DNA of 64,000 nucleotides from Chromobacterium sp. IIBBL 290-4 (GTDB lineage: Bacteria > Pseudomonadota > Gammaproteobacteria > Burkholderiales > Chromobacteriaceae), in the NCBI RefSeq assembly GCF_024207115.1, contig NZ_CP100128.1, positions 3,906,001-3,970,000 of the forward strand. Reading direction: 5' to 3'. Position numbers and translations under genes: made by a program. This document shows positions 3,258 to 48,777 of the stretch, piece by piece. Position 1 is the first letter of the stretch. Every line of letters starts with the position of its first letter. The notes beneath the pieces are model-generated. The model was not told where the DNA came from. It saw only the letters and a program-made list of their open reading frames with translations, and did no database searches.

Positions 3258-5439
3258 GCTCGGAGTTGAGATAGCCCTGCATGACGCAGGCGTCGCGTGT
3301 GGCGTGGTATTGCGCCAGCACCTGCTGGATGTGGGAGGCCGGGGAGTTGTTGCTTTGGGTGATTTCCTGCTCCAGAGCCAGGCATTGCTGCGCCAGGCTG
3401 GTGAAGCCCAGCGTGACGGCGCCGCCTTTCATGCTGTGCGCCAGGTGGAACAACTGCACCCGATCCAGTTGGTGAATGTTGTCCTCCATCTGGCTGTAGG
3501 TGGCCATGTGGCTGGAGAAGAACTGCGCCACCAACTCCAGATATTTCTCCCGGGTCAGCAGGTCGATGAAGTCTGCGATGGCGCCGCTGTCCAGCGATAC
3601 GGCTTCAACAGGCAGCGATGGCGTGATTGGCGGAAAGTGCTTTAGCAGCATGGCAAGCAATTGCTCCCTGTGAAGTGGTTTGGACAGAAAGTCATCAAGC
3701 CCATGGCGCAGCACTTGCTGACAGGTTTCCGGGAAGGCGTCGGCGGTCAGCGCGATGATCTTCATATTCGGCGTCATCGCCTCCAGCCGCATGCGGCGGG
3801 TGGTTTCGAGTCCATCCATGACCGGCATGTGCAAATCCATCAACACCAGGTCATAAGGTTCTTTTCTGGCAAGCGTCAGCGCTTCGGGCCCGTCGCTGGC
3901 CATGCTTGGCGCTTGCCCCATGCGCTCCAATAGCGCGAGCATGTATTTGCGGTTGACTGCATTGTCGTCGACCACCAGGATGCGGATCGGGACCGACAGT
4001 TCTGCCGCCGGACAGGCCTTCTCGGAGAGCTCCAGCGCCGGCATGTCCGTGACTTGCAGCGGCAGGCTGAGATGGAAGCTGCTGCCTTGCCCCTGTTTGC
4101 TGGTGACGGTGATGTTGCCCCGCATCAATTGCGCCAGGCTCTGGGAGATTTCCAGCCCCAATCCGCTGCCGCCGTATTGGCGAGCGGTGGAGCCGTCTCC
4201 TTGGGAGAAGCGTTTGAACAGGCGCGCCATGGTGGCCTCGTCCATCCCTATGCCGGTATCGGTCACCAGGACGCTGAGAGCGACCTCTCCCGCGACCTCG
4301 CCGGGAGATACGCTGGCCTGGACGGAGATGCCGCCATGCTCGGTAAATTTCACGGCATTGCTCAGCAAATTAAGCAGTATCTGCCGCAGCCGCGTCGGAT
4401 CCAGCACCACCCATTCCGGCAATTCGGAAACCAATTCCAGGCCCAGCGTCAGATTTTTGGCCTGGGCCTGCGCGCTCAAGAGATTGACGATCTGCCTCAG
4501 CAAATAGGGCAGATTGCAAGTCACCGGCGCGAGCTCCAGCTTGCCCGACTCCAGTTTGCTGGCGTCCAGCACGTCGTTCAGCAGCAGCAGCAGATGTTTG
4601 GCGGACTCCTCGGCGGTGTTGATGTAGCTGGTTTGGTTGGGGGAGGGGGCGCTGTCCGCCAGCAGGGACAGCATGCCGAGCACGCCATTGAGCGGCGTTC
4701 GGATTTCATGGCTCATATTGGCCAGGAAGGCGCTTTTTGCCAGGCTGGCGGTTTCGGCTTCATTGCGGGCGTCCTCTAGTTTGCTCGTCAGGCGCTCCAA
4801 CTCCGATTTGCGGCGCTCCAGTTGTCTCAGCTGGCGGAAAACGATGGTGCCGAATCCCAGGATCAGCAGCCACTCGAAGCCCATCAGCCAATTGCTGATG
4901 GCGATATGCTGTTTCATGGTTCGGTTTCGGCCGTCGACCATTTCCGCAACGGACTCATTGGCCTGCAAGGAAAGATCATGCAGGCCTTCGCTCATTTGCT
5001 GGAGCTCCGCCTCCAGCCGTGCCAGGCGCGCTCCGTCCAGTTTTCCGGTTTGATCGCGGAAAAACTGGTCGCCGTCATTCACAAAGCCATCCAGACGGGT
5101 TTGCATTTGCTGATAGCTGGGCAAGTCTTGCATCACCGATTTGTACAGGCCGGTGCGGATGATGCCGATGCGGCTGACGAAGATGTCGTAGCGCTCCTGC
5201 AATTGATCGGCATCGCTCTGGCCGTGCCGGGCTCTTTGCATCGCGTCCAGCAAATGAAGTTGCTCGGTTTCCAGCTGGAAATACGCCCAGATAATGTTGT
5301 CATCCTGATACAGCAGCGCATAGGCCAGCATTTCTGATTGCCGCAGCTGCAGATAAGCCACTCCGGCGAAGACGCAGACCAGCGTGACGCCGATCGCTAT
5401 CAGCGCCCGCCAGGAGGTATGCCGCTTCGACTTGAGCAT
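3244..5439 (-). CDS. Hybrid sensor histidine kinase with receiver and Hpt domains
   Basis: A 731-aa inner-membrane hybrid kinase of the BarA/ArcB layout. Order: TM helix (~12-30), periplasmic helical sensor region (~31-180), second TM (~184-202), coiled linker, HisKA with phospho-acceptor His244 in NMSHEIRTP, HATPase_c with DTGIGM and GGSGLGL boxes (~350-460), receiver with Asp535 in LMDLHMP, and Hpt with His668 in HLAHSMKGG. All phosphorelay residues are present, so an internal relay is expected. It starts 3 nt after the periplasmic protein gene and shares an operon with a REC-EAL protein, its likely output. The signal sensed is unknown. Confidence 0.93.
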   Translation of the reverse strand: MLKSKRHTSWRALIAIGVTLVCVFAGVAYLQLRQSEMLAYALLYQDDNIIWAYFQLETEQLHLLDAMQRARHGQSDADQLQERYDIFVSRIGIIRTGLYKSVMQDLPSYQQMQTRLDGFVNDGDQFFRDQTGKLDGARLARLEAELQQMSEGLHDLSLQANESVAEMVDGRNRTMKQHIAISNWLMGFEWLLILGFGTIVFRQLRQLERRKSELERLTSKLEDARNEAETASLAKSAFLANMSHEIRTPLNGVLGMLSLLADSAPSPNQTSYINTAEESAKHLLLLLNDVLDASKLESGKLELAPVTCNLPYLLRQIVNLLSAQAQAKNLTLGLELVSELPEWVVLDPTRLRQILLNLLSNAVKFTEHGGISVQASVSPGEVAGEVALSVLVTDTGIGMDEATMARLFKRFSQGDGSTARQYGGSGLGLEISQSLAQLMRGNITVTSKQGQGSSFHLSLPLQVTDMPALELSEKACPAAELSVPIRILVVDDNAVNRKYMLALLERMGQAPSMASDGPEALTLARKEPYDLVLMDLHMPVMDGLETTRRMRLEAMTPNMKIIALTADAFPETCQQVLRHGLDDFLSKPLHREQLLAMLLKHFPPITPSLPVEAVSLDSGAIADFIDLLTREKYLELVAQFFSSHMATYSQMEDNIHQLDRVQLFHLAHSMKGGAVTLGFTSLAQQCLALEQEITQSNNSPASHIQQVLAQYHATRDACVMQGYLNSELTPP

Positions 5440-5442
5440 GCT

Positions 5443-5952
5443 TTACTCCACCTGAAGGGTCTTCAGCTGCCAAGCGGAGCGGTTGTAATAAATCTCCGAC
5501 TTCAAGGCCGGCTGGCTGTCGTAGGGGTAGACGATGAACAGGGGGCCCTTGTCGCGCACCGACATGGGCTTGCCGTTCAATAAGCGGGCCAGCACGACAT
5601 TGAATTTCGCCGCGTCCGCCAGGGGGATCTCGGTTTTGTAGTCGTTCAAGGCTATGGCTTTGAGCTTGTCGCCCTTGGCGCCGACGACGGCCAGCACGTC
5701 TTGCAGATAGGGGCCGGTGAATTGACTGATGCCTGGAATCCATGGCGTATGCGTGGCAATGGTGTGTTGCGGCAGCTTGGCCAGCATGTCCATGTCGAAG
5801 GCGGCGTCGTTGTCGCGGTTCTTGTGGGCGATCTGGCCGCTGATGACCAGCACTATTTTGCCTTTAGGCTTATCCAAGGTCTCAGCCCCTTGGGCATGCG
5901 GCATGCCAAGCGACAATATCAACAGCATGGCGGCCAGGCGTAGTGCTTGCAT
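5443..5952 (-). CDS. Periplasmic molybdopterin-fold (SUOX-like) domain protein
   Basis: A 169-aa exported protein with an N-terminal signal peptide (LAAMLLILSLGMPHAQGA, cleavage near residue 22). The mature part resembles the small oxidoreductase molybdopterin-binding fold, with FTGPYLQDVLAVVGAKG and ALNDYKTEIPLAD followed by RDKGPLFIVYPYDS. It lacks the Cys expected for a working molybdopterin enzyme, so a ligand-binding role is more likely. Its position between a REC-EAL gene (21 nt upstream) and a hybrid kinase (3 nt downstream) suggests it is a periplasmic sensor partner of that kinase. The role is inferred from context. Confidence 0.75.
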   Translation of the reverse strand: MQALRLAAMLLILSLGMPHAQGAETLDKPKGKIVLVISGQIAHKNRDNDAAFDMDMLAKLPQHTIATHTPWIPGISQFTGPYLQDVLAVVGAKGDKLKAIALNDYKTEIPLADAAKFNVVLARLLNGKPMSVRDKGPLFIVYPYDSQPALKSEIYYNRSAWQLKTLQVE

Positions 5953-5973
5953 GGTGCGGCTCCTGTCTAGGCG

Positions 5974-7191
5974 TTAATTGAGATTGGGCAGGTCATAAGC
6001 GCTGTCTTGCGGCACCGGAAAGACGCCATTGTGCTTGAGCAGCCAGCGGCGGAAGTTCTCCGCGTCGATAGGGGGAGAAATATACGAGCCTTGGGCCTTG
6101 TCTATGCCCAGCTGGCGGCATGACAGCCATTCGGTGATTGTCGCGACGCCTTCGGCCACGACCAGCAGCTTCAATTGCTTGCCCAGGGCGGCGCTGGCTT
6201 TCAGTATGGAAAGGTTGGTGGGGTTTTGCGCGGAATCGATCACAAATCCCTTGTCTATTTTCAGTTCGGTGAAGGGCAGCTTGGATAGTCTGTCCATGCT
6301 GGCGAAACCGGTGCCGAAGTCGTCGATGGCGAGTTTGGCGCCTTTCAGACGCAGACGGGACAGAATCTCCAGCGCGCGGGTCGGGTTTTCTATCAGGCCG
6401 GTTTCGGTGACCTCTACCGTCAAGCGGGACATCGGATAGCCGTTGCGCGTGAGTATCGATTCGAATTCCGAGACCAGCGCGGTATCGGAGAGCGAGGTCA
6501 TGGAAAGATTGATGGACAAATCCAAAGGCGGATTGTCGATCAGCTTGCTTAGAATCGAGGTGGCGGAATCCAGCAGGCTGAGCGTCAACGGCGTGATCAG
6601 CCCGGTTTTTTCCGCCAGCTCAATGAACTGCAGCGGACTGGTAAGACCTAGCCGGGGGTGATGCCAGCGGGCCAGGATTTCCACCGAGTGGACCTTGCCG
6701 CTGAGCATGTCGACCTGGGGTTGGAAAAAGGGGCAGAATTCGTTTTTTTCGATGCCGTCGCGCATTTCCTCCTGCGTAGGCTGGCTGGCCAGCGAGGCCG
6801 GTCTGCGCGCCGCGGGAGGCGCTTGCGTAAGCAGGTCCAGCAGTGTGCTGTGATTGATCGGTTTGGGCAGCACGCCGGCCAGCCATAGGTCATATAGCCT
6901 TGCCAGCTCCGCGACGGACTCAAGCACTTTTTCGTCGAATCCGCTGGAGATCAGCAATTTGCCTTGATACGTCCTCTCGCCCAGGTGCCGGACGAACTCG
7001 ATGCCGTCCATTCTCGGCATGTCCAAATCGCAGAAGATCACGTCGAATTGCAAATCGCCCGCGTCGAGCTGCACCAGCGCCTCGATGCCGTCATTGGCGA
7101 CGGCGATCTTGTCGTAACCCAATCGGCGCAGCACCATGACGAGGAACTGCTGGGAAACCGCGTCGTCGTCTATGACCAGTATCTGGTGCAT
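5974..7191 (-). CDS. Response regulator with EAL (c-di-GMP phosphodiesterase) output
   Basis: A receiver domain (~1-125, phospho-acceptor Asp55 in FCDLDMP) fused to an EAL domain (~150-400). The EAL signature is EILAR. Metal- and substrate-binding residues are visible in INLSM, VEVTETG, IDDFGTG, LKIDKGF and VAEGVAT, so the domain should hydrolyse c-di-GMP. ATG at 7191 is chosen because GGGAGGG lies just upstream; an ATG at 7203 lies in frame but has no ribosome-binding site. It is the first gene of a minus-strand operon with a periplasmic protein and the hybrid kinase, which probably phosphorylates it to control biofilm or motility. That last step is inference. Confidence 0.92.
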   Translation of the reverse strand: MHQILVIDDDAVSQQFLVMVLRRLGYDKIAVANDGIEALVQLDAGDLQFDVIFCDLDMPRMDGIEFVRHLGERTYQGKLLISSGFDEKVLESVAELARLYDLWLAGVLPKPINHSTLLDLLTQAPPAARRPASLASQPTQEEMRDGIEKNEFCPFFQPQVDMLSGKVHSVEILARWHHPRLGLTSPLQFIELAEKTGLITPLTLSLLDSATSILSKLIDNPPLDLSINLSMTSLSDTALVSEFESILTRNGYPMSRLTVEVTETGLIENPTRALEILSRLRLKGAKLAIDDFGTGFASMDRLSKLPFTELKIDKGFVIDSAQNPTNLSILKASAALGKQLKLLVVAEGVATITEWLSCRQLGIDKAQGSYISPPIDAENFRRWLLKHNGVFPVPQDSAYDLPNLN

Positions 7192-7387
7192 GAACCCTCC
7201 CATGGATAGGCCGCCGGTCGCGGCTTTATGCATTATAGCCAGCGCCTCGTCTTGCGCGAGGCGGCTTGCGAGAGGACATTTTTTGTCTTTGCTCAGGCGA
7301 TATGCCAGGCAGCGCTAGGGTCGCGCTCAGTTTGTCGCTACAATATCGGCCTCGTTGAATAGACACCAACCTAGCACTGGATTTTTT

Positions 7388-8992
7388 ATGTTGCGCATTT
7401 CCGAATTGAAGCTGCCGCTGGACCATACGCCGGAGGAGCTGGCTGCCGCCGTTTCCGATTTTCTGAAAGTGTCGGCAGCCGACGTTCGAAGCTTTACTGT
7501 GTTCAAACGCAGCTACGACGCGCGCAAAGGCGTGATGAGCCTGGTCTACATCATCGATGCGGACGTGGCCAATGAAGACAAGCTGTTCGCCCGTTTCAAG
7601 GGCGATCGCCGGGTGGCGCCCACTCCGGACACTAATTACTACTATGTCGCCCAAGCGCCGGAGAATCTCAAATCCCGGCCGGTCGTGGTCGGTTTTGGCC
7701 CTTGCGGCATTTTCGCCGCGCTGATCCTGGCGCAAATGGGTTTCAAGCCCATCGTGCTGGAACGCGGCAAGGAGGTGCGTCAGCGCACCAAGGATACCTG
7801 GGGCCTGTGGCGCAAGAGCGAGCTCAACACCGAGTCCAATGTCCAGTATGGCGAAGGCGGCGCCGGCACCTTCTCCGACGGCAAGCTGTACAGCCAGATC
7901 AAGGACCCGCGCCATCTGGGGCGCAAAGTGCTGACCGAATTCGTCAAAGCCGGCGCGCCGGAAGAAATCCTTTATCTCGCCCGTCCGCACATCGGCACTT
8001 TCCGCCTGGTTTCCATGGTGGAAAACATGCGCGCCGACATCATCGCCTTGGGCGGCGAAATCCGTTTCGAGCAGCGCGTGGACGACCTGATCCTGGACGG
8101 CGACCGCGTGCGCGGCGTGAAGCTGGCCGACGGCGGCGAGGTGCTGAGCGATCATGTGGTGCTGGCGCTGGGCCATAGCGCGCGCGACACTTTCCAGATG
8201 CTGGAAAAGCGCGGCGTGTACATGGAAGCCAAGCCCTTCTCCGTCGGCGTGCGCATCGAGCATCCGCAATCGTTGATCGATGCGGCCCGCTGGGGCAAAT
8301 ACGCCGGCCATCCGCTGCTGGGCGCGGCGGACTACAAACTGGTGCACCATGCCAGCAACGGCCGCGCGGTGTACAGCTTCTGCATGTGCCCGGGCGGCAC
8401 CGTGGTGGCGGCCACCTCGGAAGAAAAGCGCGTGGTCACCAATGGCATGAGCCAGTATTCCCGCAATGAGCGCAACGCCAACTCCGGCTTCGTGGTCAGC
8501 ATTTCGCCGGAAGTGGATTATCCGGGCGGCCCGCTGGCTGGCCTGGACTTCCAGCGCGAACTGGAAAGCAAGGCGTATGAGCTGGGCGGCGGCGACTACT
8601 TCGCCCCGGCGCAGTTGTTGGGCGACTTCATGGCCGGCAAACCGTCCACCAAGCTGGGCGAAGTTGAGCCGTCGTACAAACCGGGCGTGACCATGACCGA
8701 CCTTGCGCGCATCCTGCCGGATTTCTGCGTGGAAGCGATGCGCGAGGCGATTCCGCACTTCGCCCGCCAGATCCGCGGTTACGATCTCAACGACGCCGTG
8801 CTGACCGGCCTGGAAACCCGAACCAGCTCGCCGCTGCGCATCACTCGCGGCGATGATTTGCAGAGCCTGAACATCAAGGGCCTGTTCCCGGCGGGCGAGG
8901 GGGCGGGCTACGCCGGTGGCATTCTTTCGGCCGGCGTGGATGGCATCAAGATCGCGGAGGCAGTGGCGCAGGCTATCGTGTCTGGCCGTTGA
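7388..8992 (+). CDS. FAD-dependent oxidoreductase (COG2509-type)
   Basis: A 534-aa flavoprotein. After an N-terminal alpha/beta region (~1-95) comes the FAD-binding VVGFGPCGIFAAL motif (~102-114), then the highly conserved QYGEGGAGTFSDGKLYSQIKD segment typical of this family. The C-terminal GAGYAGGILSAGVDG completes the FAD site. Relatives are predicted NAD(P)/FAD oxidoreductases of unknown substrate. ATG 7388 gives the family N-terminus (MLRISELKLPLDH). It is monocistronic, divergent from the REC-EAL operon, and ends in a strong terminator. Confidence 0.88.
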   Translation: MLRISELKLPLDHTPEELAAAVSDFLKVSAADVRSFTVFKRSYDARKGVMSLVYIIDADVANEDKLFARFKGDRRVAPTPDTNYYYVAQAPENLKSRPVVVGFGPCGIFAALILAQMGFKPIVLERGKEVRQRTKDTWGLWRKSELNTESNVQYGEGGAGTFSDGKLYSQIKDPRHLGRKVLTEFVKAGAPEEILYLARPHIGTFRLVSMVENMRADIIALGGEIRFEQRVDDLILDGDRVRGVKLADGGEVLSDHVVLALGHSARDTFQMLEKRGVYMEAKPFSVGVRIEHPQSLIDAARWGKYAGHPLLGAADYKLVHHASNGRAVYSFCMCPGGTVVAATSEEKRVVTNGMSQYSRNERNANSGFVVSISPEVDYPGGPLAGLDFQRELESKAYELGGGDYFAPAQLLGDFMAGKPSTKLGEVEPSYKPGVTMTDLARILPDFCVEAMREAIPHFARQIRGYDLNDAVLTGLETRTSSPLRITRGDDLQSLNIKGLFPAGEGAGYAGGILSAGVDGIKIAEAVAQAIVSGR

Positions 8993-21261: not shown

Positions 21262-21626
21262 GGGGGCGACCTGGTTTCGACGGGGGTTGCGAAGCAGATG
21301 AGGGCATACCGGGATTTCAGTCACCCCGTAAAACGCTGAATTTATTTAGTCGCAAACGACGAAACTTACGCTCTGGCAGCCTAACGGCCGGCCAGACACT
21401 ACAACGGTTCGCAGATGGGCCGGGGGCGTCAAAACCCTGTAGTGTCACTTTACATCTGCTAGTGCTGTCCCGGGTTACTTGGTTCAGTGCGAAATAATAG
21501 GTAACTCGCCAAAGTCCAGCCTGTCCGTCGGCGTGGCAGAGGTTAAATCCCAAAAGACACGACTAAGTATGTAGAACTCACTGTAGAGGACTTTCGGACG
21601 CGGGTTCGATTCCCGCCGCCTCCACC
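21262..21626 (+). ncRNA. ssrA: Transfer-messenger RNA (tmRNA), tag ANDETYALAA
   Basis: The 5' end GGGGGCGACCTGGTTTCGAC and 3' end with a T-arm (GGTTCGATTCC) and CGCCTCCACCA pair as a tRNA-Ala-like acceptor with encoded CCA. The internal tag frame starts with GCA at 21352 and reads ANDETYALAA before TAA at 21382-21384, a typical betaproteobacterial tag. It is one-piece and 365 nt, as expected. tmRNA rescues stalled ribosomes and tags nascent proteins for proteolysis with SmpB. Its 3' end is a classic integration site, and accessory DNA begins directly after it. Confidence 0.98.
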
Positions 21627-21663
21627 AAAATTCCTGGCAAAGTCAATTGCTTGCAAAAAACAG

Positions 21664-21687
21664 CCCTGCTTATGCAGGGTTTTTTTT
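21664..21687 (+). terminator. Terminator of ssrA
   Basis: CCCTGC / GCAGGG stem with TTAT loop followed by eight T residues, 38 nt after the tmRNA 3' end. Confidence 0.93.
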
Positions 21688-21845
21688 GGCTTTTTGAGGT
21701 GGTTTGGTCAGCATTTTGGTCAGCTTTTTCAAGTGGTTATCGCTTTTTTCATGATTGCACAGTCCGTCAAAGGCTGGTTGCGGGAATGAGCTGTAATCCT
21801 GTATGTTGAAATTGTACAAATTCAATGTGCTAGTGAGTAATATGC

Positions 21846-22168
21846 CTATCGGCCTAAGTAAAACATCTGTGTCCGGTACTCAGCGCTCGCCGCTCGCCCT
21901 GACGCCCGTGTTCGCCGGCTTCCCATCCCCGGCGGATGACTATCTCGATGACGTGCCGACGCAGCGTAATAGCCACTCGACCCCATCAGGGCGGCAATGA
22001 AAAGGCCAACGGCAGGCGCGAGCCATGTTCCAGCCCGAGCAGAGGCAACCACGCTTGGCGGCGCCCCGAAGAAAACGAACCAAGACACACCGCGCCGACA
22101 TGGATGATGACGCCCGCGGCAGCGATGAGAATAGCCAGATAAACCCAGACGGTAGTTCGGAGCTTCAT
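21846..22168 (-). pseudogene. Frameshifted small membrane protein (cassette-like)
   Basis: From the ATG at 22168 the frame reads a transmembrane start (MKLRTTVWVYLAILIAAAG, then IIHVGAV). The continuation shifts to another frame: SWFVFFGAPPSVVASARAGTWLAP, then GLFIAALMGSSGYYAAS. Together these match one family of small integral-membrane hypotheticals in which HLGAV runs directly into SWFxFFGAPPWVV. A second loss of homology follows near 21,930. The break lies at ~22,095-22,105. The start codon lies only 6 nt after the GTTAGGC end of an attC-like hairpin, as in integron cassettes. Confidence 0.6.
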
Positions 22169-22174
22169 TGCAAA

Positions 22175-22273
22175 GCCTAACATTGGAGCAGACTGGCCCG
22201 CGCCGGCAGAACGCCGCAAGGCCTGAATGAAATGAAATCCGCAGGCGGCGCGCCGGCGCGGGTCCGGTTGAGC
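22175..22273 (-). repeat. attC-like recombination site (candidate) after the SDR gene
   Basis: On the minus strand this starts GCTCAAC (fits RYYYAAC) and ends GTTAGGC (fits GTTRRRY), 99 nt in all. The inside folds into a long hairpin whose main stem is a perfect 11-bp CCCGCGCCGGC / GCCGGCGCGGG pair plus a second GC-rich stem. It lies 18 nt after the SDR stop and 6 nt before the next start codon, the usual cassette geometry. No integrase gene is in the window. The two terminal boxes are not perfectly complementary, so this is a candidate. Confidence 0.5.
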
Positions 22274-22291
22274 GAGGGGGCCGGCCGCAGT

Positions 22292-23023
22292 TCAGATTTG
22301 CACATGCGCAATCGATCCGCCGTCAACGTACCAGTTTGCGCCCGTGACAAAGCTTGCGACGGGACTCGAAAGAAAGACCACGACCCGCGCAATCTCCTCG
22401 GGCGCAGCGAGTCGCCCGAGAGGGTTGCGGGCCAGGACCTTCGCATATGTGTCTGGATCTTCTTCGCGCACCTTGTCCCAAAGGCCGCCTTCCGCCAGCG
22501 TGTCGCCAGGCGAGACAACATTCACGCGCACTCTTGGCGCGTACTGAGCGGCAAGACTTTTCATGTAGTGGGCCATCGCCGCCTTGGATGCGCCGTACGC
22601 AGCAGAGTTGGGGGCGGCCAATGATCCAGCCTTCGAGCCAATATACGTGATGGCCGCGCATGGCGAGCGCTGAAGGTGGGGAATGGCAAGCTCCGTGACC
22701 GCCACGGTAGCGCGAATGTCTACGGCGAGAGATTGCTCCCACGCGCCAGACAGCGCGCTGACGTTGGGGATGAAGAAGTCAAAGTCACCCACTCGATTAA
22801 GCCAGTCCGCGCTGGCCTGAGCATCGGTCACATCAAGGCGTTCGCCGACAACCTTTGCCGAGAGGTGCGCGCACCGCTTCAACGTGCGCTCGATGTTTTC
22901 AGCATTACGACCGCAAAAGTGGACATTTCAGCCTTCTTCCGCGAGGGTTTGAACGATTGCAGCGCCAATTCCGCTGGAGCCGCCCGTAACAACGGCGCAT
23001 CGATCTTGGAGTTGAAGATTCAT
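22292..23023 (-). pseudogene. SDR oxidoreductase interrupted by one in-frame stop
   Basis: From ATG 23023 (AGGAG 9 nt upstream) the frame reads a complete 243-codon SDR: cofactor motif VVTGGSSGIGAAIV, then YIGSKAG, catalytic YGASK, VVSPGDT and the C-terminal VDGG. It is broken only by a TGA at 22928-22930 between ...LAEEG and NVHFCGRN, where Cys or Trp would fit. Everything after the stop stays in frame, so this is a single nonsense mutation (or a sequencing error). A restart further down would lack the nucleotide-binding motif. Confidence 0.8.
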
Positions 23024-23210
23024 GGCGGGGCGCTCCTGAGGCCTAGGCTAGTGATTGGCACCCGAAAGTCGGGCGAAGCACCAGATTCTGGCGTGCGCAA
23101 AATATGACGTTAAGATTATTGCGTTAAATGCAGCCTAATGAAGGCCGGGTGCTTTATGGGGTAGGGAGGGGACGGGACGTACTATTGCCAAGCTAGTGGC
23201 CGTATGCTGA

Positions 23211-23287
23211 GCCCAACGTTGACCGAGAAAAATAGACTTTGCCTGATTCGATAGGCAGCATCAAATGTTTCGCGGTAAACGTTGGGC
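23211..23287 (-). repeat. attC-like recombination site (candidate) after the 172-aa hypothetical
   Basis: A 77-nt element bounded by a perfect 10-bp inverted repeat (GCCCAACGTT ... AACGTTGGGC). The outer 7-mers fit the attC boxes RYYYAAC and GTTRRRY. The interior pairs as an imperfect hairpin (ACCG/CGGT, A-rich/T-rich, then TGCCT / AGGCA around a GATTCGAT loop). It begins 44 nt after the stop of the minus-strand gene at 23332. Adjacent bases (GGCTGGGCCAAGCTTGCGAAGCCCAAC) also resemble a common palindromic intergenic repeat, which is the main alternative reading. Confidence 0.5.
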
Positions 23288-23331
23288 TTCGCAAGCTTGG
23301 CCCAGCCTACGGCCCATCTTCTACAGAGTGA

Positions 23332-23850
23332 TTAGGCCGCATCTCGCTTAGAAAGAGTGTGCCTAACAAGCTCAAGATAATATCGAGCACAATCTGACTT
23401 GATTGTGGATGCAAGAGATTCGAGAGCACGAATGCCTGGGGCCTCCAACTCAATATATTTAAGGCTTAGGGCAGCTATTGCAGCCATTGCAGCATCTTGT
23501 GAGGCAGACCCAACTGGAAGGCTTAATATTGCGGCATCTTCCACTGCACGATTAAGATTCTGAATTGTAAGGGGCGTACCTTCTTCCACTTTAAGGTTTT
23601 GAAGGATAAATTCTGCAGTTTTCTCCGATAACTGGTACCCACTCCGGCCATTGGCAATTTTCAACAGCTCCACAAATAGGGTTTGAAGGCGAATTTCAGC
23701 CTCTATTTCCATGGATTTTTGTTGGCGCCCCTCCGCACGTAGCTTTAATCTGTATTCTTTAAGTGAGAGCCAAATGCTCGTGGCAATTGTAAACATGGAT
23801 ATGCTTGCAGACAATCCGAGCATTAAATCCTTGAATTCAGAGATGGTCAT
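23332..23850 (-). CDS. Membrane-anchored hypothetical protein (172 aa)
   Basis: Not recognised. An N-terminal transmembrane helix (MLGLSASISMFTIATSIWLSL, ~9-29) is followed by a basic stretch and a soluble alpha-helical cytoplasmic domain with an EIEAEIRLQTLFVELLKIANG segment and a late ALSLKYIELEAPGIRALESLAS helix. Base composition is clearly more AT-rich than the core genes, consistent with acquisition. It is followed by an attC-like hairpin and could be the gene of an integron cassette. Such anchored small proteins are common in cassettes and defence islands, but no function can be assigned. Confidence 0.65.
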   Translation of the reverse strand: MTISEFKDLMLGLSASISMFTIATSIWLSLKEYRLKLRAEGRQQKSMEIEAEIRLQTLFVELLKIANGRSGYQLSEKTAEFILQNLKVEEGTPLTIQNLNRAVEDAAILSLPVGSASQDAAMAAIAALSLKYIELEAPGIRALESLASTIKSDCARYYLELVRHTLSKRDAA

Positions 23851-23985
23851 AACTTACCCAGATGGCTTGCTGCCTAATATTTAAGTATAGATGTCGTTCA
23901 GCCAAATCACGCATTATCAGGTGAGGTGGAGTAATGAGTTAAGAATTGGTTAGCCTCAGGGCTGTCGAGCCTAATGGCGAAAAGC

Positions 23986-24885
23986 CTAGTCCTCTTCTTG
24001 TTGGTTCTCGATTGTTGTTTTGCTTTCAAGTTCTAGATCAGGCACCAATTTTACTAATTCATTATAAGCATCGTTTAATTTCGATATGGAATCAGGGTGT
24101 AGTTTTATATCGGGAATATGTTTTTTGAAATAATCTTTAAGGCAAAGAACTGTTTCGGCCAATGCTGCATAATGTATTGCAAGCAGATTTTTGCTGAGGC
24201 TTTCATCAAAATTGGATATAAAGCTATATTGCAATGGTGAAATTAGCATTTCGGGCATGCTATTCCCCTTTGCTATTGTTGATAAGCTGTCATGGCAAGA
24301 AAGGTGAGTTATTTTCGTTAGCTCACTATACAAACGCCTATAGAAAATCTCCAGCACTTTAATATTTGGTGCTGTTTTATCTTTGGCCGTGTCTTGTATG
24401 AGATTTCGCATTTGCGTGAGCGCTTCGAGCTCCTGCCTGATAAGTGCACATGCTTGAACATACGCGCCTTCAAAAATAACATTCTCTACACTTCTAACCC
24501 CAGAGGTATATGAGGCTAAAACTGCTTCAAATTTTTCTCTCTCCTTGATATCTGGCAAGATATCCCCTGAGCCTGACAATACAAGATGACTATGTCCTGG
24601 TTCTTTTCTAATCATTAATTCATATCTATTCCATATTTCATTTAAACAATTACTGAACTCGAGCCGAATGGGACGTAGAGCTGTTAAAAAAACCTCAAGA
24701 TTAGATGCAGTCAGATCTCTGCAAATTTGAATGTGTTTATCTTGGATAGAGTCTAATTGTGTAAAAAAAGGTTGCTTATTAATATCGCTCATCATATTAA
24801 CGGCGTCATTTGGATTTGTCACTCCGAGAGCCAGCTTGCAATTGGCCGTCCGAATGTTCGATTTAAATAAAAAATTTTGCCGCAC
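23986..24885 (-). CDS. AT-rich hypothetical protein, HEPN/DUF5677-like
   Basis: An all-alpha soluble protein of up to 299 aa with no certain family. The central GAYVQACALIRQELEALTQMRNLIQD resembles the helical core of DUF5677/HEPN-like proteins, which are often found in defence or abortive-infection loci. The gene is markedly AT-rich against its surroundings. The start is uncertain: GTG at 24885 has a close AGGA, while ATG codons at 24795 and 24792 would give a ~268-aa protein. It lies upstream of the 172-aa gene in the same direction within the ssrA-tRNA-Ser island. Confidence 0.6.
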   Translation of the reverse strand: MRQNFLFKSNIRTANCKLALGVTNPNDAVNMMSDINKQPFFTQLDSIQDKHIQICRDLTASNLEVFLTALRPIRLEFSNCLNEIWNRYELMIRKEPGHSHLVLSGSGDILPDIKEREKFEAVLASYTSGVRSVENVIFEGAYVQACALIRQELEALTQMRNLIQDTAKDKTAPNIKVLEIFYRRLYSELTKITHLSCHDSLSTIAKGNSMPEMLISPLQYSFISNFDESLSKNLLAIHYAALAETVLCLKDYFKKHIPDIKLHPDSISKLNDAYNELVKLVPDLELESKTTIENQQEED

Positions 24886-25059
24886 AAGTCCTATGTCGTC
24901 AAGACTTTCATATTAATATTATTATGATTCTGGCCGGATCACTTCTTAATTGGGTTCTAGAAGTGAATGAATCGCACCACTTACCAGGCAAGGTCGCTCG
25001 GCGCTGAGTCCATGGTTGTAAGAGTGGTCTGTATCCTATTCTATTACGCCCCCTCGCCA

Positions 25060-25545
25060 TCAAGCCGCCGCCACCTCATACCGCAACCTGCCAATAATCT
25101 CTCCCAGCGGCCGCTCCAGCGCGGCATAGGCTTGGTGCATTGCCTGCTCCAGCTGGCGGACGATGGTTTTGCCGTAGCGGTGCAGGGTGGTGTGGTGGAC
25201 GCCGTGGCGGTCGCCCAGGTCTCGGCAGCCGGGGCCTTTGCCGGTGGCCCATTTGCGGATGATGTCCAGGTCCGTCTTGTAGCCGTATTTGCACGGCGTG
25301 TGGGTGGTGAGGTAGATCATTTCGGTTTCGCGGCGGGCGTGCAGCGCCCACAGCACGGCGCGTTGAAGATTGGGCAGGCGGTTGATCTTGGCCATGATCA
25401 TGGCGGTTTGGGCTTTCTTCTCGTGCATGGTCAGCGCTTCAAACTCCGGCGGCTCGTACTGGCCAAAGCGCTGGGTTTTGAGCAGCAGGGTGGTTTCCAT
25501 CTGAAAGCACAGCCCCACCAGGTTTTGAATCGTCGATGCCTGCAT
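25060..25545 (-). CDS. Phage-type HTH protein, possible late-gene antiterminator
   Basis: A 161-aa soluble protein. The C-terminal half has a helix-turn-helix-like segment (DLGDRHGVHHTTLHRYGKTIVRQLEQAM). The N-terminal half is helical (MTMHEKKAQTAMIMAKINRLPNLQRAVLWALHARR-like). Its place 20 nt after rusA matches lambdoid early-right operons, where an antitermination protein or similar regulator follows. GC content is high, unlike the neighbouring cassettes, marking a different origin. DNA binding is inferred; the Q-like role is a guess from synteny. Confidence 0.6.
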   Translation of the reverse strand: MQASTIQNLVGLCFQMETTLLLKTQRFGQYEPPEFEALTMHEKKAQTAMIMAKINRLPNLQRAVLWALHARRETEMIYLTTHTPCKYGYKTDLDIIRKWATGKGPGCRDLGDRHGVHHTTLHRYGKTIVRQLEQAMHQAYAALERPLGEIIGRLRYEVAAA

Positions 25546-25565: not shown

Positions 25566-26030
25566 TCACGTAGGCTGGGCGGCGTCGATCGGCTTGATCG
25601 TCACCTTGACTCCAGCTTGTTCTGCGTACCGCTTGCTCTTCACCACATCGCACACCAGCGCGTCGTCCTGCCAGACGACCTTGTTCAGCGCGTCGTAAAC
25701 CGCCTTTTCGATGTTGTCGATGTCTGGCTTCACCGTGGGCAGTACCAGCCCGGCCAGAGCCAGCGCGCGGCGGCGTTTCGGCCAGCTGGCCGGCACCGGC
25801 AGAAAAATCCGCAGCTCGATGTCCACCGGGCCGGTGATCAAGGGCCGGTTGCCGAAGGCCTGCTTGGCGATCCACGACACCCGCGCTTCGTAGTGGGCGG
25901 TTTTGGCTGGCGTGTAATGCCGGGTGTGGGCCTGGGCCTGGCCGTCGGCGCCCTGGCGGATGCGGGTGGCGCTGCGCGCGTGCTGCTTGCCCACTGGCGC
26001 GCCGGGGATGAAGAAGGTTACGGCGCTCAT
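25566..26030 (-). CDS. rusA: RusA-family Holliday-junction resolvase (prophage)
   Basis: A 154-aa RusA-type endodeoxyribonuclease, a phage-derived enzyme that cleaves four-way DNA junctions as a dimer. The acidic active-site block KPDIDNIEKAVYDALN followed by VVWQDDALV is diagnostic, with the C-terminal SKRYAEQAGVKVTI strand and the N-terminal FFIPGAPVGKQ. Its ATG overlaps the TGA of a tiny upstream frame. It belongs to a lambdoid prophage remnant transcribed towards ssrA and lying next to tRNA-Ser. Confidence 0.92.
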   Translation of the reverse strand: MSAVTFFIPGAPVGKQHARSATRIRQGADGQAQAHTRHYTPAKTAHYEARVSWIAKQAFGNRPLITGPVDIELRIFLPVPASWPKRRRALALAGLVLPTVKPDIDNIEKAVYDALNKVVWQDDALVCDVVKSKRYAEQAGVKVTIKPIDAAQPT

Positions 26031-26227: not shown

Positions 26228-26315
26228 TGGCGGAGGCTGTGGGATTCGAACCCACGGACGGTTGCCCGTCGGCAGTTTTCAAGACTGCTGGTTTAAACCA
26301 CTCACCCAAACCTCC
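26228..26315 (-). tRNA. tRNA-Ser (anticodon UGA)
   Basis: The acceptor GGAGGTT pairs with AGCCTCC, with discriminator G and encoded CCA. The anticodon loop is CTTGAAA within the CAGTCTTGAAAACTG stem-loop, giving anticodon TGA (UCA codons). It has the long variable arm (GACGGGCAACCGTC) expected of class II tRNA-Ser and a GGTTCGAATCC T-loop. The 88 nt include CCA. The prophage remnant lies directly 3' of it, as expected for integration at a tRNA. Confidence 0.97.
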
Positions 26316-47477: not shown

Positions 47478-47831
47478 TCAGCTGAACATGTCGCCCTGGC
47501 GGCTTTCCATTTCCTCGCGCCGGACGGCCTTCACAATCTTGTAAATCCACTGCAGGCTGACACCATACTTGCGCGCCAGGTCGCCATGGTTGTCTCCGGT
47601 AAATTCCTCGAATATCTTCCTGTCCCGCTTCGATAACCTGACCGACAGTCCCATCGGAAAGTAGATGTTCTGGCCGCCCCAGTGCGCCGCCATCCGGTTG
47701 GCGATCTCGCTGCCCAGCTGCTCACCGATTTCCCGTTCAATGCTGGCCAGCTCTTGCAAAGCCTCGGCGATGTGGTCGGCCAGATCGGACAGCAGCTCCG
47801 GGCCTTTGCTGCGGGTATGGATGGGCTTCAT
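47478..47831 (-). CDS. Mor transcription activator-family protein (Mu-like phage)
   Basis: A 117-aa Mu Mor/C-type activator of middle or late phage genes. The conserved middle is NRMAAHWGGQNIYFPMGLSVRLSKRDRKIFEEFTGDN, and the C-terminal HTH is LARKYGVSLQWIYKIVKAVRRE. Its ATG overlaps the gemA stop by 4 nt. It is the last gene of the early operon remnant; the phage late genes that should follow are missing. Confidence 0.9.
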   Translation of the reverse strand: MKPIHTRSKGPELLSDLADHIAEALQELASIEREIGEQLGSEIANRMAAHWGGQNIYFPMGLSVRLSKRDRKIFEEFTGDNHGDLARKYGVSLQWIYKIVKAVRREEMESRQGDMFS

Positions 47832-48430
47832 GCTTCCTCCTTGGCCTTAAGGGTGGTGGTCAGACCTTCCCAAACGCTCAACATCGGGTCAAACGTTTTG
47901 CGAGTCATAGCCGTATTCAGCAGCTGATTCAGTTGATTGCACTGCGCCGCAGTCAGCGGCAGCTGTTGTACCTCGGCCGCCAGCTTCTGCACCAGATCGG
48001 GCAGCGAACGCATCGCCCACTTCTTCAGCGATTCGATCACCTGTTCCAGCTGATCGCCGGCCAGCCACTGCATGGCGTCCCGCCCGGTAATCCGCTTCAC
48101 ATATGCAGCCAGGGCGCTCTCGGCCGGGTTCTTGACCACGCCGATCTGATGCAGAAACAGCCACAGCGCACGTATCTTCTTGTGCTGCTCGTCCTGGGCC
48201 AGCGAGCGCGCCTGAGTGGCTGGCTGCGCTTTGGAACGTACCTTGAATCCGCTGCGCTTCAAGTATTCCAACACCTGGTTGAGCTCTGGAACGGTCAGGT
48301 CAGCCGCGGATGCCTTCTTTCCAATCCGCTGGAGAATGGCGCGGTAGCTGTCGTCTTCCAGGGCCAGCTCGCGCTTGGCTACGTGGATCAGGCGGATCAG
48401 TCGCTGTCGGTCTTGGGTCTTTGCGTTCAT
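47828..48430 (-). CDS. GemA/gp16-family protein (Mu-like phage)
   Basis: A 200-aa protein matching the DUF1018/Mu gp16 (GemA) family, a modulator of host gene expression in Mu: RLIRLIHVAKRELALEDDSYRAILQRIGKKASAADLTVPELNQVLEYLKRSGFK is characteristic, and RALWLFLHQIGVV and RDAMQWLAGDQLEQVIESLKKW follow. ATG 48430 is the natural start. It sits between HU and Mor as in many Mu-like early regions. Confidence 0.9.
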   Translation of the reverse strand: MNAKTQDRQRLIRLIHVAKRELALEDDSYRAILQRIGKKASAADLTVPELNQVLEYLKRSGFKVRSKAQPATQARSLAQDEQHKKIRALWLFLHQIGVVKNPAESALAAYVKRITGRDAMQWLAGDQLEQVIESLKKWAMRSLPDLVQKLAAEVQQLPLTAAQCNQLNQLLNTAMTRKTFDPMLSVWEGLTTTLKAKEEA

Positions 48431-48504
48431 CGTTGGCTGCTCATCAGTACCCGGCAACCACGCCGGGCAGACCGCGCACATATTTCTATGCGCACGGTTT
48501 CGCT

Positions 48505-48777
48505 TTATGCGGCGGCGTCCTTCAGCGCCTTGGCCGCTGAGAACTTAGGCGCGCGCTTGGCGGCGATCCGGATGGTCTCGCCGGTTTTCGGATTACGGCC
48601 AGTCTTAGCCGCGCGTTGGGTGGTCCCAAACTTGCCAAGGTCAGAGATTGCCAGCTCGCCTCCCGCTCGCACGGTATCCAGCACCGCGGTTGTCAGCGCG
48701 TTGAGAACGGCTTCGGCTTGTTTGTTGGTGACATCCGCGTGGGCGGCCAGGTGTTTGATCAGGTCTTGCTTGGTCAT
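48505..48777 (-). CDS. HU-family DNA-binding protein (phage-linked copy)
   Basis: A 90-aa HU/IHF-type architectural protein: MTKQDLIKHLAAHADVTNKQAEAVLNALTTAV followed by GKFGTTQRAAKTGRNPKTGETIRI (DNA-wrapping arm). AAGGAG lies upstream of ATG 48777. HU copies are common in Mu-like early operons and aid transpososome assembly. It precedes gemA by 74 nt. Confidence 0.93.
   Translation of the reverse strand: MTKQDLIKHLAAHADVTNKQAEAVLNALTTAVLDTVRAGGELAISDLGKFGTTQRAAKTGRNPKTGETIRIAAKRAPKFSAAKALKDAAA

Follow-up and report, generated by a model that had tools for sequence, protein, structure and literature searches.

Probable remains of one or two integron cassettes, with a separate REP pair, between ssrA and tRNA-Ser in a Chromobacterium genome

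The locus described here lies in a window of 64 kb (positions 3906001-3970000 of C1, the single 5.117-Mb contig of the host genome), and coordinates refer to that window unless stated otherwise. One or two integron cassettes have very probably been stranded and fossilised in the stretch from 21.8 to 23.0 kb, which lies in a variable region between ssrA and tRNA-Ser; a 77-nt hairpin in the same region is a separate REP pair. At the level of sequence, the comparisons below establish the relationship of the fossil site to other attC sites, its position, its decay and the identity of the REP pair. A lone decayed attC site, one or two broken cassettes and a REP pair are all things of known kinds, and this is a new instance of them; the locus looks unlike a working gene-capture array. 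No description of it was found in the portions covered of the literature on integrons, SALIN and CALIN, on Chromobacterium attC or REP sequences, and on RAYT and REPIN elements.

The variable region and its genes

The initial annotation had placed the locus between ssrA and tRNA-Ser, and both genes were located there. The interval contains genes for a RusA-like resolvase, a 299-aa protein, a 172-aa protein, an SDR oxidoreductase and a small membrane protein, all on the minus strand. The features referred to below are as follows; the attC boxes carry their usual names (R'', L'', L' and R').

21262-21627, plus strand: ssrA (tmRNA), one edge of the variable region
21846-22168, minus strand: small membrane-protein gene, ATG at 22168-22166; frameshifted and split over two frames
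22175-22285, minus strand: attC remnant, 111 nt; sole default-filter match of attC model R1 in the 64-kb window
22181-22175, minus strand: R' of the attC remnant, GTTAGGC; fits GTTRRRY, with G/TT kept
Between R' and R'', minus strand: inner parts of the attC remnant by the model alignment, namely spacer CCCTC, L'' GCTCAACC, loop TCATTTCATTC and the L' region
22285-22279, minus strand: R'' of the attC remnant, GCCGGCC; RYYYAAC consensus lost
22292-23023, minus strand: SDR oxidoreductase pseudogene (PF13561, PF00106); stop 6 nt before R''
23198-23315, minus strand: REPIN-like element, made up of two GTAG-headed REPs in inverted orientation; the 77-nt hairpin, 23211-23287, forms its inner part
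23332-23850, minus strand: gene for the 172-aa protein, no assigned family; stop TAA inside GCCTAAT
23872-23922, minus strand: weak, non-significant attC-like candidate upstream of the 172-aa gene (12.2 bits and E 0.51 in the 64-kb scan, filters off)
25566-26030, minus strand: RusA-like Holliday junction resolvase (PF05866, 119 bits; phrog_140, 143 bits)
26228-26315, minus strand: tRNA-Ser(TGA), the opposite edge of the variable region

The resolvase gene is probably a prophage remnant. Neither the 299-aa nor the 172-aa protein has a Pfam match above the cut-off, an NCBIfam match or a PHROGs match, and an Rfam search of 21600-25100 (E up to 1) returned only the end of the tmRNA.

The ssrA edge is the same in all five congeners examined, over 15 kb around ssrA in each. 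Both edges are kept in two of them (G003 and G010), where they enclose about 9 and 10.7 kb; in the other three (G005, G008 and G012), the far edge at tRNA-Ser was not found inside the 15-kb stretch. In G010, the end of ssrA also occurs a second time, as a perfect copy of 30 bp close to the far side. Thus, the interval is a variable region, and at least one species has an attachment site at ssrA. In the window, no attR copy of the end of ssrA was found; the best match there is a 30-nt stretch of 83% identity in tRNA-Ser.

An attC model and two hairpins

The window was scanned for attC sites with R1, a covariance model built specifically for this analysis and distinct from the model of IntegronFinder. 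R1 is based on 16 attC sites of other genomes, none of them found with the site in the window as query. These training sites come from integrase-linked arrays of the family (loci L066, L067, L069, L070 and L074) and from three loci that entered through relatives of the membrane protein in the window (L078, L082 and L096). The two-helix structure of R1 pairs 89.5% of cells compared with 80.1% in shuffled alignments, and covariation in the alignment is 0.264 compared with 0.113; neither value is reached by any of 500 shuffles. Two of the five measures applied to the training alignment fail to beat the shuffles, namely the number of pairs in which both sides change (6, a value reached by 97 of 500 shuffles) and the pair types (10, reached by 491 of 500). 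Applied to 348 kb in 33 fetched loci, some of which overlap and which include the training loci, the model gives 65 matches with E up to 1.

Under the default filters, with E values of up to 10 admitted, R1 matches the window at one place, 22285-22175 on the minus strand (25.1 bits, E 2.2e-4). The score is low, since 34 of the 65 matches from the fetched loci reach 45 bits or more. Turning the filters off adds six weak matches, the best of 12.2 bits and E 0.51. The initial annotation had pointed to two hairpins on the minus strand with outer 7-mers resembling R boxes, and both are present: GCCCAAC...GTTGGGC over 77 nt at 23287-23211, and GCTCAAC...GTTAGGC over 99 nt at 22273-22175. It had taken both for attC sites, each close behind a stop codon. 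The second claim is borne out for the remnant, whose R'' follows the SDR stop by 6 nt, but the 77-nt hairpin starts 44 nt after the stop of the 172-aa gene. The first claim fails for that hairpin, whose palindrome is dispersed over seven places in the genome, an outcome that the annotation itself had named as speaking against its reading.

The 77-nt hairpin folds far better than shuffled sequences (z -5.98). The element that contains it consists of one GTAG-headed REP followed, after a spacer, by a second that is inverted and worn, with the head GCATACGG. The tail pattern AAGCCCAACGTTTACCG, with up to two mismatches, has 11 matches at these seven places in the own genome and none in a reversed control; a BLAST search with the hairpin itself finds five further places (six in total). 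Counting the own genome, at least 10 of the 19 genus genomes have a match to the stretch (up to 15 candidates scored). One REP reported for a REP-associated tyrosine transposase (RAYT) is GTAGGTTGGGCTGAGCTTGCGAAGCCCAAC, as listed in Table 1 of PMC2817692; the REP in the window reads GTAGGCTGGGCCAAGCTTGCGAAGCCCAAC, which is nearly identical. RAYT genes match in 15 of the 19 genus genomes (13 over the cut-off). Among 30 RAYT loci whose flanks were inspected, the gene has the same REP on both sides, inverted, in six of the 19 genomes (G002, G003, G009, G015, G016 and G017). The REP pair in the window aligns with these flanking REPs and with the other copies. The RAYT gene in G002 that is flanked by the window type of REP is a broken copy. 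These likenesses identify the 77-nt hairpin as a RAYT-type REP palindrome, one of several dispersed copies.

The own genome was considered as the source of the transposase. Its RAYT (NF047646, 188 bits) is flanked by a different REP and was therefore rejected as the source; because the one RAYT found bears this other REP, the cognate transposase seems to be absent. A RAYT would have spread the REP pair that now stands between the 172-aa and SDR genes.

Read as attC sites, the two hairpins, perhaps with a third candidate ahead of the 172-aa gene, would make the locus a three-cassette array without an integrase (CALIN), as the initial annotation had proposed. There are indeed three genes on the same strand and R-box-like 7-mers at both hairpins, and the 172-aa gene ends in the R''-like GCCTAAT. 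Cassette genes are commonly seen on short contigs, and 29 of the 35 relatives of the 172-aa protein (itself excluded) are on contigs of which the longest is under 10 kb. A cassette origin of this gene is possible; the protein has no relative in the 398 other genomes of the order and no match in plasmids. The array as a whole is nevertheless improbable. R1 scores the 77-nt hairpin at 10.3 bits (E 1.6 over the window) on one strand and at 8.7 bits (E 4.1) on the other, and as a REP pair with copies at six other places, linked to RAYT genes, it was rejected as an attC site. The third candidate does no better than chance: with filters off, the model prefers 23922-23872 (minus strand) at 12.2 bits and E 0.51, and it was likewise rejected. 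One significant attC site stands in the window, and with 150 of 5605 candidates scored, the same site (E 0.017) is the only genome-wide match at E up to 0.1. IntegronFinder 2.0 by default calls a CALIN from at least two attC sites, although true positives may occur among attC sites that stand alone (PMC9024848). With its single site, the locus falls short of that two-site rule.

REP pairs might also be related to attC sites in another way, by landing preferentially in or beside attC hairpins in this genus and wearing down or taking over cassette arrays. This reading, in which REPs and attC sites are both folded single-strand substrates, is very unlikely. We counted REPs at 25 attC loci of the genus, covering about 1.5 kb on each side and less at contig ends. 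A REP with its tail occurs at one of the 25, that of the window, so that an association of REPs with attC is not supported and was rejected; four more loci show only loose head matches, and 11 other loci, taken as background, have no tail match in 115 kb. In favour of the reading, the REP pair in the window sits just behind a gene ending in R''-like GCCTAAT, G002 has a decayed attC next to a REP pair, and REP pairs elsewhere are interspersed in rows of small genes that lie mostly on one strand. R1 has no match with E up to 1 at any of four REP-bearing loci (L047, L049, L050 and L051).

The attC remnant and the genes beside it

The 99-nt hairpin of the initial annotation is part of a decayed attC site in the right orientation, but its limits were wrong. 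The model alignment gives a site of 111 nt, and the 99-nt limits were rejected; the GCTCAAC that had been read as R'' belongs to the L'' box, and the real R'', GCCGGCC, lies 12 nt further 5'. This R'' fails RYYYAAC, two of the seven R pairs are non-standard in the model alignment, several L pairs are broken and part of L' has decayed. In attC recombination, it is the bottom strand that takes part, in folded form (PMC8266576). The bottom strand of the site in the window folds with z -0.91, and 35 of 200 shuffles fold at least as well; three of its relatives give z -2.48, -5.44 and -7.83. The weak score, genome-wide E of 0.017, non-consensus R'' and poor fold are the reasons for filing the site as an attC remnant, and the altered R'' is why we do not class it as recombination-competent. 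With GCCGGCC as R'' and several L pairs broken, it is probably inactive. The pair poses a trap for sequence readers: with GCCCAAC and GTTGGGC, the REP palindrome mimics the R boxes of attC, and it both imitates these boxes and folds better than the truly attC-derived site next to it.

The same weaknesses, together with the GC content of 70%, would fit an ordinary GC-rich intergenic hairpin, such as a terminator, that resembles attC by chance. We consider that extremely unlikely in view of the relatives of the site. A search of 399 genomes of the order with the DNA of the remnant gave matches in at least 66 (own genome included; E up to 0.01), mostly short; up to two candidates were scored per genome, and such counts are lower bounds. 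Among the candidates scored, the best match outside the own genome is in another family of the order (G275:C55; 80% identity over 98 bp, E 2e-18), at a site without an array whose R boxes are unmatched by R1 (model positions 7-74 only). The next best (72%, E 1.5e-7) is an attC site of an integrase-bearing integron, G253:C24, where an integron integrase (TIGR02249, 414.7 bits; cut-off 265) lies beside two attC sites of 57.8 and 55.0 bits. Relatives of the remnant also occur in cassette arrays in G245, G049 and Paucibacter. The loop TCATTTCATTC is common to all eight aligned sites (rows chosen as this type of site), array attC sites among them. The relative in G245 reads GCCTAAC-CCCTC-GTTCAACC...GTTAGGC, compared with GCCGGCC-CCCTC-GCTCAACC...GTTAGGC in the window.

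The gene ahead of the remnant is also a cassette gene elsewhere. G245 is the only other genome among the 399 with a match to the SDR protein at E up to 1e-60 (up to six candidates scored per genome). Its relative (62% identity) lies between two attC sites (3752-3822 and 4568-4645 of locus L161; 47.8 and 45.9 bits), and the gap from stop codon to attC is 6 nt there as in the window. The SDR gene in the window is 75% identical over 243 aa to the intact protein P0011, with one in-frame TGA (22928-22930); its nearest protein besides itself is 77% identical. On these comparisons, the SDR pseudogene is probably the gene of the cassette that bears the 111-nt remnant.

On the other side of the remnant, the ATG of the membrane-protein gene is at 22168-22166, 6 nt after GTTAGGC, exactly as the initial annotation had it. 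Its view that two of the genes are decaying also stands, the SDR gene being interrupted by the TGA and the membrane-protein gene split over two frames. By comparison with other loci, the SDR gene and the 111-nt site are arranged as in a gene cassette, and the start of the membrane-protein gene is placed like that of a next cassette, to which it probably belongs. With R1 and filters off, no attC boundary was found in the window ahead of the SDR gene or behind the membrane-protein gene, so none belonging to the latter. A protein search gave nine relatives of the membrane protein, and named records contain 21 loci of the family. A simple motif scan found attC candidates at five of the 21 and none at 16. 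Arrays of attC sites are present at two of the 21 (Paucibacter L096 and L082 from a MAG); the candidates at L087 and L088 are single and doubtful. In Iodobacter (L078), the gene starts 6 nt after a decayed attC-like site, which was read by eye. Cassettes on plasmids were considered and rejected: a search with the SDR-membrane DNA gave short matches in two records, covering 6% and 4%, and searches with the 172-aa protein and with a relative of the membrane protein gave none.

Decay of the integron in the genus, and comparison with known systems

As the initial annotation had noted, no integrase gene is visible nearby; tblastn found no integron integrase in the 64-kb window. It had also suggested looking for intI in the wider genome, where none passes the cut-off but an N-terminal fragment survives. 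All seven partial TIGR02249 matches are below the cut-off of 265. Four belong to XerD (L021) and XerC (L022), as named by NCBIfam, and two to other recombinase-like ORFs (L006 and L007). The last is a 231-nt fragment at 136070-136300 of the genome (model positions 2-78, with two TAG codons), 1.3 Mb from the locus in the window and the only remnant of an integron integrase found in the genome. The flanks of this fragment show synteny with G002:C94; there, an integrase N-terminus (41 residues aligned, near the contig end) stands at the head of five attC sites. The own relic locus (L020) has one weak R1 match (15.1 bits, E 0.49).

An integron integrase passes the TIGR02249 cut-off in seven of 61 genomes of the family. 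Within the genus, it does so only in G013, where the gene has four stops inside; the only near-full-length integrase seen in the genus is thus a pseudogene. G008 contains a broken integrase piece beside two attC sites (L199). Matches to attC are kept in at least 11 of the 19 genus genomes at E up to 0.02, and in at least 12 at E up to 0.1 (150 candidates scored per genome, so that the counts are lower bounds). These attC matches and broken integrases across the genus point to a decaying chromosomal integron, of which the site in the window would be one stray cassette junction, a small case of integron decay. From what is known of integron biology, an integron integrase would once have joined the SDR and membrane-protein cassettes by cleavage at G/TT of the folded attC site; since then, the genome would have lost the integrase except for the distant fragment, and the attC site would have decayed.

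The idea that REP pairs replaced attC sites in the genus, so that rows of genes and REPs are another sort of cassette array, could draw on a decayed attC abutting a REP pair in G002 (L164, 8031-8153; no R1 match with E up to 1), on seven REP places (six paired) alternating with small ORFs, mostly on one strand, in G017:C30, and on reported insertions of REPs in other palindromes (PMC3733652), but it is barely credible given the count at the 25 attC loci and the occurrence of REP pairs where no attC is seen.

Compared with the REPs and REPINs associated with RAYTs, the pair in the window has the same GTAG head and imperfect palindrome, in two inverted copies of near-published sequence, and its REP flanks RAYT genes in six genomes of the genus; it differs in that the RAYT of its own genome goes with another REP and in its few copies (seven places). 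With a CALIN, the locus shares a chromosomal attC that lacks a nearby integrase and is decaying, but it has one site rather than the two or more of the IntegronFinder 2.0 default. Chromosomal integrons and their cassettes differ from it in that here the R'' consensus is lost, L' is partly decayed, there is one site and no integrase, and both genes are broken. What the locus has in common with them is the order R''-spacer-L''...L'-spacer-R' with G/TT in R', a sequence similar to the attC sites of arrays, and the spacing of a gene cassette, with a stop codon 6 nt before the site and the next start codon 6 nt after R'.

Decaying integrons in the genus

Integron remains occur in the strain's own genome (G000) and in other genomes of the same genus (G002 and G008), and include the following:

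G000:C1:135455-136300 (5456-6301 of fetched locus L020): relic integron, with a 128-aa ORF and a fragment of the integron integrase gene intI
L199 (G008:C1) 8541-8976: broken integron integrase pieces, within 5920-8976 and beside two attC cassette sites
L164 (G002:C1) 8031-8153: decayed attC that follows a response-regulator gene

The intI fragment of the own-genome relic carries two TAG triplets, and the syntenic locus in G002:C94 (L197) retains five attC sites. The stretch 5920-8976 of L199 is a further decaying integron of the genus. At L164, a pair of inverted GTAG-headed palindromes (a REP pair, as at window 23198-23315) abuts the R' end of the decayed attC. A regulator gene very similar to that of L164 is also present in the own genome, where two REP pairs adjoin it, together with small genes of unknown kind (L015 13714-17044).

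The ssrA/tRNA-Ser region and a ribozyme

Two further features were placed in the window:

25566-26030 (-): RusA-like Holliday junction resolvase, inside the ssrA/tRNA-Ser region
48431-48505 (-): hammerhead ribozyme of Type II, scoring 66.9 bits where the gathering score is 37

The resolvase is probably a prophage remnant. In another genome of the genus, G010, the 3' end of ssrA is duplicated as a perfect 30-bp copy about 10 kb downstream of the gene (L192 10985-11014); this copy is probably where an island integrated at ssrA has its attachment site. The ribozyme overlaps the start of an ORF at 47828-48481 (-).

REP palindromes and their surroundings

Only one REP-associated tyrosine transposase (RAYT) gene was found in the own genome. 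The GTAG REP that flanks it, CGTAGGGCGGGCA, differs from the window type, and four head matches surround the gene.

G000:C1:3446922-3447494 (L076 6923-7495): RAYT gene

In G017:C30, small ORFs lying mostly on one strand alternate with REP places (L047 5991-10123), and L049, L050 and L051 show the same alternation. The REP places of L047 number seven, six of them paired and all in a single orientation, and upstream of the row lies a protein of 1802 aa that contains hemagglutinin repeats (PF13332). Such rows are perhaps orphan toxin/immunity-type modules, with REP pairs as punctuation; the function given here is a guess.
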